Positions 18,012 through 37,745 of a DNA stretch of 55,032 nucleotides are shown one piece after another; the first letter of the stretch is position 1, and every line of letters starts with the position of its first letter. The notes below the pieces were generated by a model. That model ran no database searches, was not told the DNA's origin, and was given only the letters and a program-made list of their open reading frames with translations. A program made the position numbers and the translations under genes. This stretch comes from Planctomycetales bacterium (GTDB lineage: Bacteria; Planctomycetota; Planctomycetia; Pirellulales; S012-138): contig WFOE01000167.1 in NCBI GenBank assembly GCA_015488215.1, positions 1 to 55,032 of the forward strand, in the 5' to 3' direction.

Positions 18012-18084
18012 CTGAGTAGAGAGCAACTGGCTTTGAGCAGGCACCGGTGGTATAGCTCTCCGGCAAGCCGACTTCGCTGGTCGT

Positions 18085-18140
18085 GAAGGCTTGGAGGCGT
18101 GAGCGGGGGCTTCCGCACCGGGCGGAAATCGGCCAGCGGC
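18085..18140 (+). repeat. Partial intergenic repeat upstream of rarA
   Basis: GGCTTGGAGGCGTG and CCGGGCGGAAATCGGC match, on the opposite strand, the module at 28155-28215 (CCACGCCTCCAAGCC and GCCGATTTCCGCCCGG). This shows that the open frame upstream of 18239 is repeat DNA rather than part of RarA. Confidence 0.55.
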
Positions 18141-18238
18141 CCCGTTGCATGACACCCGGCGGCGGTTCTGTTATACAGAAGTTTGAAGAGGCGGTTGCCT
18201 TCTTCCCCCGAGGTAGTTTTTGCGGGAGCCTGCAGGTC

Positions 18239-19609
18239 GTGGCCCGGTCGCAGAACGAAACCCAGTCGCTCTTTGCCCGGCAAGAGGAGGCGCATCGCCG
18301 CGCCGCCCAACCGCTTGCGGCCCGAATGCGCCCCCGTAGCCTGGAGGAGTTCGTCGGCCAGCAGCATTTTCTGGGGCCCGGCAAACTGCTGCGGCGGTTG
18401 CTCCAGGCCGATCGGCTCACTTCGGCCGTGTTTTACGGTCCCCCGGGTACCGGTAAAACGACGCTGGCCCGGGTCATCGCCGCCGAAACCCAAAGCCACT
18501 TCGTGCAGCTCAACGCGGTCACCAGCGGTGTGAAGGAGCTGCGCGAAGTAATCCGGGAAGCTCAGAGTGAACTGGCCCGCTCTGGCCGCCGGACCGTGCT
18601 GTTCGTGGACGAAATCCACCGCTTCAACAAAGCCCAGCAGGACGTGCTGCTGCCCCACGTGGAAGAAGGGACCGTGGTGCTGCTAGGCGCCACGACGCAG
18701 AATCCCTTCTTTGCCCTCACCAGCGCCCTGGTCAGCCGCAGCCATGTGTTTGAGTTTCGCCCCCTGAACGAAGAGGAAATCCTGGAAGTGCTCCGCCGGG
18801 CGCTAAGGGATCCGGAGCGAGGACTAGGGGCCGAGCCGGTCCAGGCCGACCCGGAAGCCCTCCGCTGGCTGGCCCAAGTGTCCGACGGCGATGCGCGCCG
18901 GGCGCTTTCGGCCCTGGAAGTGGCCGTGCTCTCCAGCGACCAGCGCCCGGTGCGGCTCACCCGGGAACTGCTGGCCGAATCCGTGCAGCGCAAGCCCGTG
19001 GTCTATGACCGCCAGGGAGACGCCCACTACGACGCGGCCAGTGCGCTGATCAAAAGCATCCGCGGCTCCGACCCGGACGCAGCCCTGTACTGGCTGGCCT
19101 GGATGCTGGAAGGGGGCGAAGACGTGCGGTTTATCACCCGGCGGCTGGTCATCCTGGCCAGCGAGGACATCGGCAACGCCGACCCGCAGGCCCTTCCCCT
19201 GGCCGTGGCCGCGATGCAGGCGTGCGAGTTCGTCGGCTTGCCCGAGTGCCAACTGACGCTGGCCCAGGCGGTTACCTACCTGGCCTGTGCTCCCAAAAGT
19301 AACGCCGCCACCGAGGCGATTGCCCAGGCCCGAGCCGACGTCCGCCAGGGCCGCCTGGTTCCCGTGCCGGTTCACCTGCGGGACAGGCACTACGCCGGGG
19401 CCAAGCGGCTGGGCCACGGCGAAGGCTATCAGTACGCCCACGCTTCGCCGGAAGGGGTGGTGGCCCAGGACTACCTGGGCGTGGACCGCATCTACTATCG
19501 CCCTCGCCCGCGCGGTTTCGAGCAGGAACTGGCCCGACGGCTGGAACACATCCGCAAGGTGCTTCGCCAAGGACGCACCTCGCCAGAGGAGCAGCAACCG
19601 ACCGAGTGA
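18239..19609 (+). CDS. rarA: Replication-associated recombination protein A (RarA/MgsA AAA+ ATPase)
   Basis: A 456-residue AAA+ ATPase that acts at stalled replication forks, homologous to E. coli RarA and yeast Mgs1. The chosen start is GTG at 18239 because the protein then begins MARSQNETQSLF and reaches PLAARMRPRSLEEFVGQQH at the family's usual distance; the open frame extends to 18083 but that stretch overlaps an intergenic repeat. Walker A is GPPGTGKTT (residues 67-75), Walker B is VLFVDEIHRFN, sensor 1 lies in LLGATTQNPFFALTSAL with its arginine finger in the following SRSHVFEF. The C-terminal MgsA tetramerisation domain is intact (YDAASALIKSIRGSDPDAALYWLA, YQYAHA). Confidence 0.94.
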   Translation: MARSQNETQSLFARQEEAHRRAAQPLAARMRPRSLEEFVGQQHFLGPGKLLRRLLQADRLTSAVFYGPPGTGKTTLARVIAAETQSHFVQLNAVTSGVKELREVIREAQSELARSGRRTVLFVDEIHRFNKAQQDVLLPHVEEGTVVLLGATTQNPFFALTSALVSRSHVFEFRPLNEEEILEVLRRALRDPERGLGAEPVQADPEALRWLAQVSDGDARRALSALEVAVLSSDQRPVRLTRELLAESVQRKPVVYDRQGDAHYDAASALIKSIRGSDPDAALYWLAWMLEGGEDVRFITRRLVILASEDIGNADPQALPLAVAAMQACEFVGLPECQLTLAQAVTYLACAPKSNAATEAIAQARADVRQGRLVPVPVHLRDRHYAGAKRLGHGEGYQYAHASPEGVVAQDYLGVDRIYYRPRPRGFEQELARRLEHIRKVLRQGRTSPEEQQPTE

Positions 19610-23464: not shown

Positions 23465-24169
23465 GTGAGTCTCCACGAATCTCCGCCCCCGGCACAGGAA
23501 CCGCCGGATGATTACGAGTGGTGGCAACTGGAGCTATTCCCGCCTCCCGGGGCCACGCGGCAGCACCACGTGGTGCTGGAACCGTACAGCCGGCGGCCGC
23601 CGGGGCTGGTGTTCGCTCTGGGGATTCTGGCCGCGGTGTTCGGTGGCGTGGCCACGCTGGAACACCGCAGCGGCCTGACCCAGCAAGTGATGGGAGCCGT
23701 GGTGCTCTTTGCCGGGACGGCGGCTACCGCCCGGGCGTGGTGGATTATCCGCACCCAGCGCCGCAGCGGTCCTCCGCGGCTGGTTGTTTCGGTCCAGCCG
23801 GTTTTCATCGGCGAGCGGTTCACGGTTCGGTTCGAGCAGTTTTATCGCCGCAGATGTTCGTTGCAGCACGTGGCGTTGTACCTGCGCTGCGTGGAAGAAG
23901 CCCGCTGGCAAAAAGGAGAGCAGCGCCTGCGCGAGCAGGTGGAAATCCACGCTCGGCAGCATCTGCTCGTTCCGGCCAGAGAAGTGGCCCCCGGAACGCG
24001 CCTCAACGGCAAGGTAGAGTTGTGTGTGCCGGACCAGGCCATGCACAGCTTTTCGGCCCCGCACAACCAGGTCCGCTGGCTGTTGGAGCTGGAGATTGCC
24101 GTTGCAGGCCGCGAGGCCTATCGGGAACAATTTCCCCTGCTGGTGGCTCCTCGCCGCGTAGGAAGCTGA
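23465..24169 (+). CDS. Two-helix membrane protein with an arrestin-like C-terminal domain (A)
   Basis: A 234-residue protein starting at GTG 23465 with only a weak ribosome site. A Pro-rich cytoplasmic N-terminus (about 45 residues) is followed by two membrane helices (about 47-65 and 73-95) and a C-terminal beta-rich domain (104-234). That domain begins RLVVSVQPVFIGERFTVRFEQ and ends with VPDQAMHSFSAPHNQVRWLLELE and FPLLVAP. The same opening and ending occur in the next gene and, in shorter form, in the third gene; the pattern (P-x-S/H-x-x-G/A ... W-x-l-E-v ... F-x-l) is that of arrestin/Spo0M-fold proteins. Function unknown. The next gene is separated by a 349-bp repeat-filled gap. Confidence 0.72.
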   Translation: MSLHESPPPAQEPPDDYEWWQLELFPPPGATRQHHVVLEPYSRRPPGLVFALGILAAVFGGVATLEHRSGLTQQVMGAVVLFAGTAATARAWWIIRTQRRSGPPRLVVSVQPVFIGERFTVRFEQFYRRRCSLQHVALYLRCVEEARWQKGEQRLREQVEIHARQHLLVPAREVAPGTRLNGKVELCVPDQAMHSFSAPHNQVRWLLELEIAVAGREAYREQFPLLVAPRRVGS

Positions 24170-24191
24170 CCCGAGGGAAACCGTCGGCCCC

Positions 24192-24308
24192 GGCGAGCCG
24201 CCGACTTGAGTCGGCGGAGGACGGCAGGGCCGTCGGCGACTGGGTGCTTCCGCACCGAGGGCGTGGAGGCATGGAGACGTGGGGAGATGGGGGGAGAGCT
24301 TCCGCTCC
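24192..24308 (-). repeat. Composite intergenic repeat, hairpin and GGAA-loop modules
   Basis: Read on the minus strand this has GGAGC-GGAA-GCTC at 24308-24295, a purine/pyrimidine-biased run of TCTCCCCAC-type text, GTGC-GGAA-GCAC (24255-24244), CAGTCGCCGACGGC, and a 20-bp palindrome CCGCCGACT-CA-AGTCGGCGG (24217-24198) closed by GGCTCGCC. The same order occurs at 27990-28055 and 28170-28215. Confidence 0.75.
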
Positions 24309-24339
24309 AACGCAAGGAGAAACGATGATTCTCGCAAAC

Positions 24340-24426
24340 GGCGAGCCGCCAGCTTTAGCTGGCGGAGGAAAAACACCAATAAGCGCTTTTCACCGGTTCT
24401 TCCCGGACTGAAGTCCGGGGCTCGCC
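24340..24426 (-). repeat. Two-hairpin intergenic element, copy 1
   Basis: An 87-bp element bounded by GGCGAGCC (24340-24347) and GGCTCGCC (24419-24426). It contains the palindromes CCGCCAGCT-TT-AGCTGGCGG (24346-24365) and CCCGGACT-GA-AGTCCGGG (24402-24419), with a spacer that on the minus strand reads ACCGGTGAAAAGCGCTT and TTTTTCCTCC. Copies with the same architecture are at 35422, 37652 and, degenerate, 46151. The 349-bp gap 24170-24518 consists almost wholly of this and the preceding repeat. Confidence 0.85.
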
Positions 24427-24518
24427 GTGAAGGCCCAGGGCTCGCCGAAGCGCCGAGGGGAACGTCAGTTAGCATGTTCAAAGACGATTGGCTGGGTACT
24501 TAAAAAGGACACAATCCA

Positions 24519-25247
24519 ATGAGCGACACGGGAGGAAAAGTCGTTGTCGTTTCTTCACCCGACGCGATGCAACGGCTGTACGGGTTGCAAGGCCCGTTCC
24601 CTTCGCCCCACGCCCCTCGGGAAACCCAAGTGGCGCTCAAACCCGCCTCGGGCTGCGGTCTGGCCGTGTTGCTGGCGGTGGGGCTGGCTTTTGTAATGGC
24701 TGGGATCGGCTGGAGCGTGATGCTGCTGATGGACAAAGGGGAGTTCTGGTTCGTCTGGATTTTTGTCGCCGTGTTCGAGCTGGTGGGCCTGGTAATCGTA
24801 GGCGTCGGCGTGGCGCAACTGCTGGCCCGGCGCAAGGTGGAACCGCCCGAGCTGGTCGTTTCGGTCCAACCGCTTTACCTGGGCGAAACGTTCACGGTGC
24901 GCCTGCGCCAGCCGTTCAAAGGGGACTGCCAACTCAACGGAGTAGCCCTGAAGCTGATTTGCCGCGAGGAAGCGACTTACCGCCGGGGCACCAACACCCA
25001 TACGGATCGGCACGAGGTGTTCACCGAATCCTATCCGGTGTTCGGAGCCCAGCACGCTCCGGCCGGCACCGTGTTGGAAAGCGAGATTTCTCTACAGATT
25101 CCCGAAGACGCCATGCACACCTTCGTCGCCTTGCGGAACAAGATTCTGTGGTTGCTGGAGGTCCACGTGGACATCGCCTCCTGGCCGGACTACCGGGAAG
25201 AGTTCCAACTCCAGGTGGCCCCGCGCCGGATGGAATCGGCCACCTGA
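24519..25247 (+). CDS. Two-helix membrane protein with an arrestin-like C-terminal domain (B)
   Basis: A 242-residue paralogue of the protein encoded at 23465. Layout is the same: about 45 residues of N-terminal tail, two membrane helices (about 46-70 and 77-103), and a C-terminal domain from residue 110 that begins ELVVSVQPLYLGETFTVRLRQ and ends with IPEDAMHTFVALRNKILWLLE and FQLQVAP. AAGGA at 24505-24509 precedes the ATG by nine bases. It is followed after 42 bp by the soluble arrestin-like gene and then the ATPase gene, so genes B, C and the ATPase form a tight operon. Function unknown; the fold assignment is inferred from the motif pattern, not from a search. Confidence 0.75.
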   Translation: MSDTGGKVVVVSSPDAMQRLYGLQGPFPSPHAPRETQVALKPASGCGLAVLLAVGLAFVMAGIGWSVMLLMDKGEFWFVWIFVAVFELVGLVIVGVGVAQLLARRKVEPPELVVSVQPLYLGETFTVRLRQPFKGDCQLNGVALKLICREEATYRRGTNTHTDRHEVFTESYPVFGAQHAPAGTVLESEISLQIPEDAMHTFVALRNKILWLLEVHVDIASWPDYREEFQLQVAPRRMESAT

Positions 25248-25289
25248 ACCGTTTGCGAGAAGGAATCATTCGCTAGAAGGAATACTCGC

Positions 25290-25682
25290 ATGGGCAAACC
25301 TACCGCCACCATCGAGCTGGATCCCGGCCCCTGGGCCGACGATCCTCAGTGGGCCGACTGCCGTCCGGCCGAAGGCAACCTGAGCGGCCGCGTGCGGGTG
25401 GATGTGGACGAACCGCTCAACCCGCGGCGGGTCATCTTACGCGTAAAATGGTACACCGAAGGCCGGGGAGATCGGGACGAAGGAATCCTCTGGGAAGAAG
25501 TGGTTCACCAAGGACCGCTTGTCGGTGGGGAGGAGTTCCCCTTTGAAGTCCAACTGCCCGAAGGGCCGTTGAGCTATTCGGGACGGCTAATCAAGATCAT
25601 TTGGGCCGTCGAGGTGCATTTTGACATCGCGTGGCGCAAAGACCCCAAGTTCGAGCAGCGTTTTCGACTGGTCCTGGCCTGA
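25290..25682 (+). CDS. Small soluble arrestin/Spo0M-like protein (C)
   Basis: A 130-residue protein with no signal peptide or membrane helix. The sequence reads as a single beta-sandwich: GNLSGRVRVDVDEPLNPRRVILRVKWYTEGRGDRDEG, then FPFEVQLPEGPLSYSGRLIKIIW and AVEVHFDIAWRKDPKFEQRFRLVLA. The segment with L-P-x-G-P-x-S-Y-x-G followed by I-x-W-x-V-E-V is typical of Spo0M/arrestin-fold proteins. It aligns by eye with the C-terminal domains of the two upstream membrane proteins. AGAAGGA at 25275-25281 supports the start. The ATPase gene begins 13 bp after its stop. Confidence 0.75.
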   Translation: MGKPTATIELDPGPWADDPQWADCRPAEGNLSGRVRVDVDEPLNPRRVILRVKWYTEGRGDRDEGILWEEVVHQGPLVGGEEFPFEVQLPEGPLSYSGRLIKIIWAVEVHFDIAWRKDPKFEQRFRLVLA

Positions 25683-25695
25683 GGCGGGTAAGGCG

Positions 25696-26427
25696 ATGCC
25701 CACGGCCCCTGGAATGCTCGGCTCTTCCAGCTTCAGCCGCTTGCGCGATGCCGGCGAGCTGCGCTGGCGGCAGTTGGGGCTGCAGGGCAATCCGTTCAAT
25801 ACCCTGACGGTCGAAGAAGAGATTGGCGTTTTGGACCACCTGGAACCCCAGGCCCGGCAAATCGCTCCTCTGGCCCAGCGGCCCGGTTTTTCGGCCCTGG
25901 TGATTCAGGCTCCCCGGGGCTGGGGCAAATCGACCCTGCTGCGGCTCTGGCAGCAGGAGCTCTCCGACCGGGGAATCGCCTGGCACCACCAGGTGCTTCG
26001 GCCGGGGGATCGATTGCAACCCCTAGGTGATGTCCCGTGGCTGCTGCTGGACGAAGCCCAACGGCTCTCCCGGGCGGATCGCCGCCGCCTGGTCCGCTGG
26101 TTGCGTGCACCGGGACACCGGCTGGTCGCTACCACGCACGAGCGGTTGCACTCCTGGCTTCCGGGAAACGTGGTCCAGTGGTCTCTCCGCGGTCCTACGC
26201 GTCAGGGGTTGCACCGCTGGTACGCCTGGCGTCTGGAACGTGCTGGCGCCCAGCCGGGACAGTTCCAGTTGACCGACGAGGCGGCCTGTTGGCTGCTGCG
26301 CCGCTGGGCGGGCAATCTGCACGATATCTTACGCGTTCTTTACTACCTGTTTCAAACCGCTCCGGTAGAGCAGTTGCTGCGGCTGGAAGCAGCAAGCTGC
26401 CAGGCCGCCGAGCAGGTGAACACCTGA
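25696..26427 (+). CDS. ExeA/TniB-like P-loop ATPase at the end of the arrestin-like cassette
   Basis: A 243-residue cytoplasmic ATPase. The N-terminus has LGLQGNPFNTLTVEEE (residues 27-42), reminiscent of the G-L-x-x-N-P-F opening of ExeA-type AAA proteins. The P-loop is APRGWGKST (residues 72-80), with Ala in place of the usual first Gly. Walker B is VPWLLLDEAQRLS (residues 113-125), and a sensor-1-like position is HRLVATTHERL. The C-terminal part is a helical lid (LTDEAACWLLRRWAGNLHDILRVLYYLFQ). Start ATG 25696 follows GGGTAAGG. Tight spacing to the arrestin-like genes suggests a joint function, which is not described to my knowledge. Two 14-bp palindromes lie at its 3' end. Confidence 0.78.
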   Translation: MPTAPGMLGSSSFSRLRDAGELRWRQLGLQGNPFNTLTVEEEIGVLDHLEPQARQIAPLAQRPGFSALVIQAPRGWGKSTLLRLWQQELSDRGIAWHHQVLRPGDRLQPLGDVPWLLLDEAQRLSRADRRRLVRWLRAPGHRLVATTHERLHSWLPGNVVQWSLRGPTRQGLHRWYAWRLERAGAQPGQFQLTDEAACWLLRRWAGNLHDILRVLYYLFQTAPVEQLLRLEAASCQAAEQVNT

Positions 26428-35421: not shown

Positions 35422-35517
35422 GGCGAGCCCCGGACTTCAGTCCGGGGAGAGCCAGAGAAACCGGAGAAAAACGCTTGCTCGTTCTTTTCCTCCGGGAGCT
35501 AAAGCTCCCGGATCGCC
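35422..35517 (+). repeat. Two-hairpin intergenic element, copy 2
   Basis: GGCGAGCC (35422) opens the element. Hairpin 1 is CCCCGGACT-TC-AGTCCGGGG (35428-35447). The spacer reads ACCGGAGAAAAACGCTT then TTCTTTTCCTCC. Hairpin 2 is CCGGGAGCT-AA-AGCTCCCGG (35492-35511), closed by ATCGCC. It lies in the 566-bp gap 35227-35792, which holds only the terminator and repeats. Confidence 0.85.
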
Positions 35518-37651: not shown

Positions 37652-37745
37652 GGCGAGCCCCGGACTTCAGTCCGGGGAAGCCGGAAGGAACCGGAGAAAA
37701 CGCTTTCGTTGTTTCTCCTCCGCCGACTAAAGTCGGCGACTCGCC
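37652..37745 (+). repeat. Two-hairpin intergenic element, copy 3
   Basis: GGCGAGCC (37652), hairpin 1 CCCCGGACT-TC-AGTCCGGGG (37658-37677), spacer ACCGGAGAAAACGCTT and TTGTTTCTCCTCC, hairpin 2 CGCCGACT-AA-AGTCGGCG (37721-37738), closed by CTCGCC (37740-37745). It sits between convergent genes. Confidence 0.87.

Follow-up and report, generated by a model that had tools for sequence, protein, structure and literature searches.

Predicted arrestin-type lobes on separate soluble and membrane-anchored proteins, encoded with a P-loop ATPase in a conserved planctomycete cassette

A DNA stretch of 55,032 nt from a Planctomycetales bacterium (S012-138, Pirellulales; assembly GCA_015488215.1, contig WFOE01000167.1), here called the window, carries a cassette of four successive genes on the + strand, arrA, arrB, arrS and an ATPase gene (Table 1). 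A preliminary description from the sequence had read them as two membrane-anchored arrestin-like proteins, a soluble arrestin-like protein and an ExeA-like ATPase, and the coordinates as well as the gaps between the genes (349, 42 and 13 bp) were borne out. We found that relatives join the soluble and the membrane-anchored domains as two lobes of one chain, and that the ATPase gene is linked to these genes throughout the order and is mostly lost with them. We propose that the products of the cassette are a split arrestin/Vps26-like adaptor, tethered to a membrane, and a dedicated ATPase that controls it or its client, a reading for which we see the chances as about evenly balanced.

The fold of arrS was analysed with Pfam, with each score compared to the gathering cut-off, and with an AlphaFold model computed from an alignment of 31 homologues. 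The protein matched Arrestin_N narrowly over the cut-off (E 1.5e-5), and matches to Arrestin_N, Arrestin_C and Vps26 were found across the arrS family. The model was a confident single arrestin lobe with a predicted local distance difference test (pLDDT) score of 93.6. When it was compared with the PDB by Foldseek, the N-lobe of ARRDC3 was the best match (2.3e-9), followed by Spo0M (1.2e-7) and Vps26 (about 1e-6), and a profile search with the sequence only gave weak matches to TXNIP, ARRDC3 and Vps26. A search of NCBIfam returned no family for the arrestin-type proteins of the cassette. The predicted structure places arrS in the arrestin clan, in agreement with the fold that had been suggested for it.

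In ten loci from eight families (L080, L081, L104, L106, L109, L110, L111, L114, L117 and L118), an arrS-type and an arrB-type domain were found in one open reading frame with a membrane hairpin between them. In L115, the two domains are fused in the reverse order. In L080, the chain continues past the C-lobe with a stretch (residues 330-478) that has no Pfam match, and the same was observed in L081, L111 and L117. The L110 protein scored over the cut-offs for Arrestin_N (53.6 bits, with the best stretch in the first half) and for Arrestin_C (49.3 bits, in the second half). L110 was then modelled from an alignment that included arrS, arrB and arrA of the window, which resulted in a pLDDT of 91.3 and a predicted template modelling score (pTM) of 0.83. 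The model consists of a lobe at residues 4-122, helices at 138-218 and a second lobe at 222-344, and its best PDB match was Vps26 (E 4.5e-17), aligned along the whole target. Since the template modelling score (TM-score) on the target was 0.52, compared to about 0.36 for arrS alone, the two lobes are predicted to be placed roughly as in Vps26, with a large root mean square deviation of 7-12 Å.

Since relatives carry both domains fused in one chain, N-lobe first and C-lobe second, the domains of arrS and of the membrane proteins are best assigned, from alignment and modelling, as the N-lobe and the C-lobe of one bilobed arrestin that the window encodes on separate genes. The arrB protein of the window aligns with the second lobe of the fused chain, and by alignment to the modelled C-lobe the lobes of both arrB and arrA are predicted to be of the arrestin type. 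The presence of arrestin-type genes with an ATPase was confirmed, whereas the idea of three equivalent adaptors was not, since the soluble and the membrane-anchored domains correspond to different lobes.

The arrA and arrB proteins are paralogues with 36% identity (E 1.3e-32) and share the opening LVVSVQPxxxGExFTVR and the ending YREEF/YREQF...VAPRR of the domain, as had been noticed before. In the family alignment, arrA lacks the conserved YRxGTxTxT motif. The two membrane helices that had been ascribed to both proteins were clear in the hydropathy analysis of arrB (within residues 38-72 and 74-104), whereas in arrA only the first passed the threshold and the second was suggested by eye. The long form of the membrane protein, which is common in the order, spans the membrane four times ahead of the lobe and carries DUF3592 between helices one and two; of 35 membrane members, 21 matched DUF3592. 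Two helices are present in the short form, and over the family the helix number is mostly even (2 or 4). In both forms, the N-terminus is predicted to be on the side of the membrane where the lobe lies, and the modelled hairpin of the fused chain puts both lobes on one side. The net charge following the last helix did not indicate sidedness consistently. Since no export signals were seen in arrS or in the ATPase by inspection, we infer that the lobes are cytoplasmic.

The distribution of the genes was analysed in 197 genomes of the order, 160 of which were of good quality, and in a phylum sample of 294 genomes, in 35 of which arrS was found. Relatives of arrB were present in 166 of the 197 genomes (140 of the 160). 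Wide regions around 40 loci and around the additional copy that the window genome carries, 41 in total, were scanned in six frames with profiles built for this analysis. All 41 contained arrS, and in 35 an ATPase with an NPF motif (NPF-ATPase) was encoded within 1.5 kb. It was always on the same strand and was located downstream of arrS in 33 of the 35, and the cassette genes often overlap by 4 bp. Outside the order, an adjacent ATPase on the same strand was found in 17 of 25 loci; several of the remaining loci have short flanks. Only one further NPF-ATPase was encountered in the 614 kb scanned in the order, and it was the only one in about 0.69 Mb overall. It is itself part of another, fused-type cassette in L088 (14395-16001; ATPase and N-lobe, truncated where the retrieved sequence ends), which is separated by about 5 kb from the canonical cassette of that genome. 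Four genomes with cassettes lacking an adjacent ATPase (G001, G002, G008 and G125) each contained one strong ATPase orthologue elsewhere (E 5e-43 to 8e-71).

Next to the linkage, we considered the loss of the genes in 16 genomes that were chosen because arrB was not found in them. arrS was absent from all 16 and the ATPase from 14 to 15, with no ATPase match of any kind in 14. One of the two ATPase matches was a fragment of 65 residues where a contig ends, and the other was weak and lay in a frame of 478 residues that resembles a RarA-type protein. Some of these genomes retain diverged or shortened remnants of the membrane gene, and in G051 a piece of it lies at the edge of a contig. Because the 16 genomes were selected on the absence of arrB and are not independent, many belonging to one family, the co-loss is support, not proof, for one co-inherited set. 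The linkage of the ATPase to these genes in relatives, on which the preliminary description had depended, is confirmed by the adjacent loci and by the common loss.

A second membrane gene of the arrA type occurred only in the window genus among the genomes examined, with orthologues in both other genomes of the genus (G003 and G004). The core of the system is three genes (arrB-type, arrS and ATPase), with the second membrane gene as an extra.

The window genome holds two systems, the cassette described here and a canonical operon of DUF3592-arrB, arrS and ATPase on contig C4, and both congeners also have two ATPases of the cassette family. In the ATPase tree and in the arrS tree, the window genus grouped with the fused type, apart from the canonical type, with a Shimodaira-Hasegawa-like approximate likelihood ratio test (SH-aLRT) value of 98 each; the trees were made by a quick method, with few columns for arrS and a long branch inside the ATPase group. 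The ATPase and arrS distances of 53 cassettes correlated with r 0.78 (permutation p 0.0005), a value that includes shared species history. A copy outside the phylum was found on plasmid pANACY.03 of Anabaena cylindrica PCC 7122 (L122, 5257-7762), with arrB (233 aa), arrS (117 aa) and the ATPase in the gene order of the window. There, the ATPase gene is split by a transposase insertion. This copy was matched when plasmids were searched with the window arrS; no plasmid was matched when the fused chain or the canonical arrS served as the query, and a scan of named genomes with arrS matched only a congener. With the DUF3592 long form, the fused form and the cyanobacterial copy, the family is wider than had been supposed.

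The ATPase contains the motifs NPF, GWGKST (P-loop), LLLDEAQ and TTH, so that Walker A and Walker B are both present. Its assignment as ExeA-like was not supported by curated scores. The window protein did not reach the Pfam cut-offs for AAA_22 (18.1 versus 27 bits) or AAA_16 (22.7 versus 32.6 bits), most members of the family match both only weakly, and the profile similarity is equally to AAA+ proteins of the clamp-loader/RarA/Hda type. We therefore keep ExeA as a resemblance alone. The ATPase profile also matched a RarA/MgsA-type AAA+ protein at positions 18083-19606 of the window and is unspecific without the NPF motif and the context. Walker B reads DE in the fused type, in the window genus and in L059, and DG or DS in 42 of the remaining rows of the alignment that were examined.

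How the parts might work together can be proposed as follows. At the cytoplasmic face of the membrane, the N-lobe of arrS would bind the C-lobe of arrB and probably that of arrA as well. This docking would re-create the two-lobed arrestin that is a single polypeptide in relatives, where the hairpin separates the lobes. The ATPase with its NPF motif would then act on the assembly, so that the adaptor, or a client recruited by it, is loaded, released or remodelled. ATP binding would drive this action, together with hydrolysis in the window copy, which is proposed because Walker B is intact there. The reconstitution of the lobes on the membrane is supported by the fused relatives and by modelling, and the lobe-lobe contact itself would follow from them. 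The linkage and the co-loss suggest that the ATPase contacts and controls the assembly or its client; the remodelling or loading of an adaptor had already been put forward for it and may apply.

Several observations weigh against this proposal. In most ATPases of the DUF3592 type, the Walker B glutamate is replaced, mostly by glycine (39 DG and 3 DS versus 7 DE), so hydrolysis is not the general mode. Since the glutamate is often lost there, ATP binding rather than hydrolysis may matter in the canonical type. In sister genera of the family, the arrestin pair occurs without an adjacent ATPase. Finally, the co-loss and the distance correlation partly reflect shared ancestry, and the genomes with co-loss were preselected for the absence of arrB.

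The loss of the glutamate would also fit another explanation, in which an extracytoplasmic DUF3592 domain of the widespread long form senses the state of the envelope and signals through the helices to the cytosolic lobes. The ATPase would then be the output, a nucleotide switch, and the window copy would be a derived one that has lost its sensor. The position of DUF3592 between the first two of the four helices, and its presence in most of the membrane members, speak for such a sensor, but the window, fused and cyanobacterial forms keep the ATPase without having the domain. No ligand is known for DUF3592, which the open-licence literature barely mentions. We regard sensing as rather unlikely, although it is the strongest of the alternatives.

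The split adaptor with its ATPase was then compared with known systems. Spo0M, Vps26 and the arrestins form one clan (PMC2515105), to which the cassette belongs by its predicted fold. With Vps26 it shares the bilobed arrangement, over both lobes of which the fused L110 gave its best match. In contrast to the cassette, Vps26 is a soluble single chain with Vps35 and Vps29 as partners; the cassette has a membrane hairpin between the lobes, which in the window are split over genes, and a P-loop ATPase as the partner. No relatives of Vps35 or Vps29 were seen in the cassette or in the neighbouring genes examined, and no genome-wide search was made. By its composition, the cassette is not a retromer. 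The likeness to the alpha-arrestins (ARRDC/TXNIP) is in the fold of the N-lobe, for which ARRDC3 was the top match of arrS. Alpha-arrestins are eukaryotic, have their two lobes in one soluble chain and recruit ubiquitin ligases via PY motifs. The ATPase resembles the ExeA/TniB type, with an NPF-type N-terminus, a P-loop and a DEAQ Walker B, but is short and found without a peptidoglycan-binding or transposase context.

Among bacterial proteins, Spo0M is the nearest characterised one with an arrestin fold. It was among the Foldseek matches of arrS, and the Pfam family Spo0M was reached over the gathering cut-off by L110 (43.6 bits) and L080 (23.2 bits) of the fused type, whereas the window proteins stayed below it (14.3 versus 23 bits). 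For Spo0M of B. subtilis, interactions with division proteins and an influence on the morphology of the membrane have been reported (PMC5325327), and the cassette might likewise encode a scaffold for cell division or envelope organisation, whose assembly at the septum or membrane is controlled by the ATPase. However, Spo0M is soluble, has both lobes in a single chain and is not reported to contain a membrane hairpin or to work with an ATPase, and since some genomes have lost the whole cassette set, the set is not essential. We consider a scaffold function improbable.

A role as an anti-phage defence or mobile-element module, suggested by the interrupted plasmid copy, which has cas1, cas2, csx18 and a gene with a WYL domain within a few kb, and by weak P-loop matches of the ATPase to defence ATPases in PADLOC, was rejected as highly improbable because the PADLOC models did not match the arrestin proteins, the cassette lies in a conserved housekeeping neighbourhood in most genomes of the order and no viral contigs were found.

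In the open-licence literature, we found no account of a membrane hairpin between arrestin lobes, of a split arrestin or of an arrestin-ATPase operon, and no described system of this composition, as had been anticipated. At the protein level, the cassette is a variant of the arrestin clan; as a multi-gene system, no described counterpart was found there. The clan has been known in bacteria mainly through the solitary Spo0M, whereas here a multi-gene membrane system is kept in most of an order. Its architecture is a natural experiment, in which a protein that some genomes encode as a single chain is distributed over two or three genes elsewhere. If the lobes do assemble and are acted on by the ATPase, the cassette would be a small testable model of arrestin-type adaptors outside the eukaryotes and would offer a framework for several hypothetical protein families, many DUF3592 proteins among them. 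A further step would be that the ATPase controls the reversible assembly of the split, membrane-bound adaptor, which selects membrane clients in parallel to the cargo adaptors of eukaryotic sorting; this we think unlikely. Eukaryote-like membrane organisation has been described in this phylum (PMC2799638), in a paper that is silent on arrestins, Vps26 and retromer. A link of the cassette to it is possible, and our findings bear on such claims, although no trafficking is implied by the data.

Table 1. Positions of the cassette genes and motifs in the window
Feature	Position	Strand	Description
arrA	23465..24169	+	Diverged paralogue, predicted membrane-anchored arrestin C-lobe, 234 aa; open reading frame and translation
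Gap arrA-arrB	24170..24518	.	349 bp, palindromic repeats at 24345-24366 and 24401-24420
arrB	24519..25247	+	Short N-tail, two-helix hairpin (aa ~38-104), predicted arrestin C-lobe (aa ~109-242), probably cytosolic
arrS	25290..25682	+	Soluble single arrestin N-lobe (predicted), 130 aa; Pfam, AlphaFold, Foldseek
ATPase	25696..26427	+	Small P-loop ATPase, 243 aa; NPF, Walker A, Walker B DEAQ, TTH sensor-like motif
NPF motif of ATPase	25789..25797	+	aa 32-34; invariant in 30 homologues
Walker A core GWGKST	25918..25935	+	ATPase aa 75-80
Walker B LLLDEAQ	26041..26061	+	ATPase aa 116-122; catalytic Glu present

The genes around the canonical operon were also inspected. In L064, L065 and L068, it is repeatedly flanked by a UvrD-like helicase, a small protein like the carboxy-terminal domain (CTD) of the RNA polymerase alpha subunit and a pyrroloquinoline quinone (PQQ)-repeat protein, and a protein without a Pfam match is encoded downstream. 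Since other families and other types have different neighbours, the UvrD-like, alpha-CTD-like and PQQ-repeat proteins, and also PolX, were judged to reflect ancestral gene order and were rejected as parts of the system.

Because the long gap with its small palindromic repeats sets arrA apart from arrB, arrA is coupled less tightly than the other three genes; in G003 and G004, this gap is much shorter. The palindromic repeats (CCGGACTGAAGTCCGGGG and a related one) are dispersed in the window (24345-24420, 35428-35447 and 37658-37677), and one of those in the gap recurs elsewhere in it. Their number exceeded that expected by chance when the sequence was shuffled.

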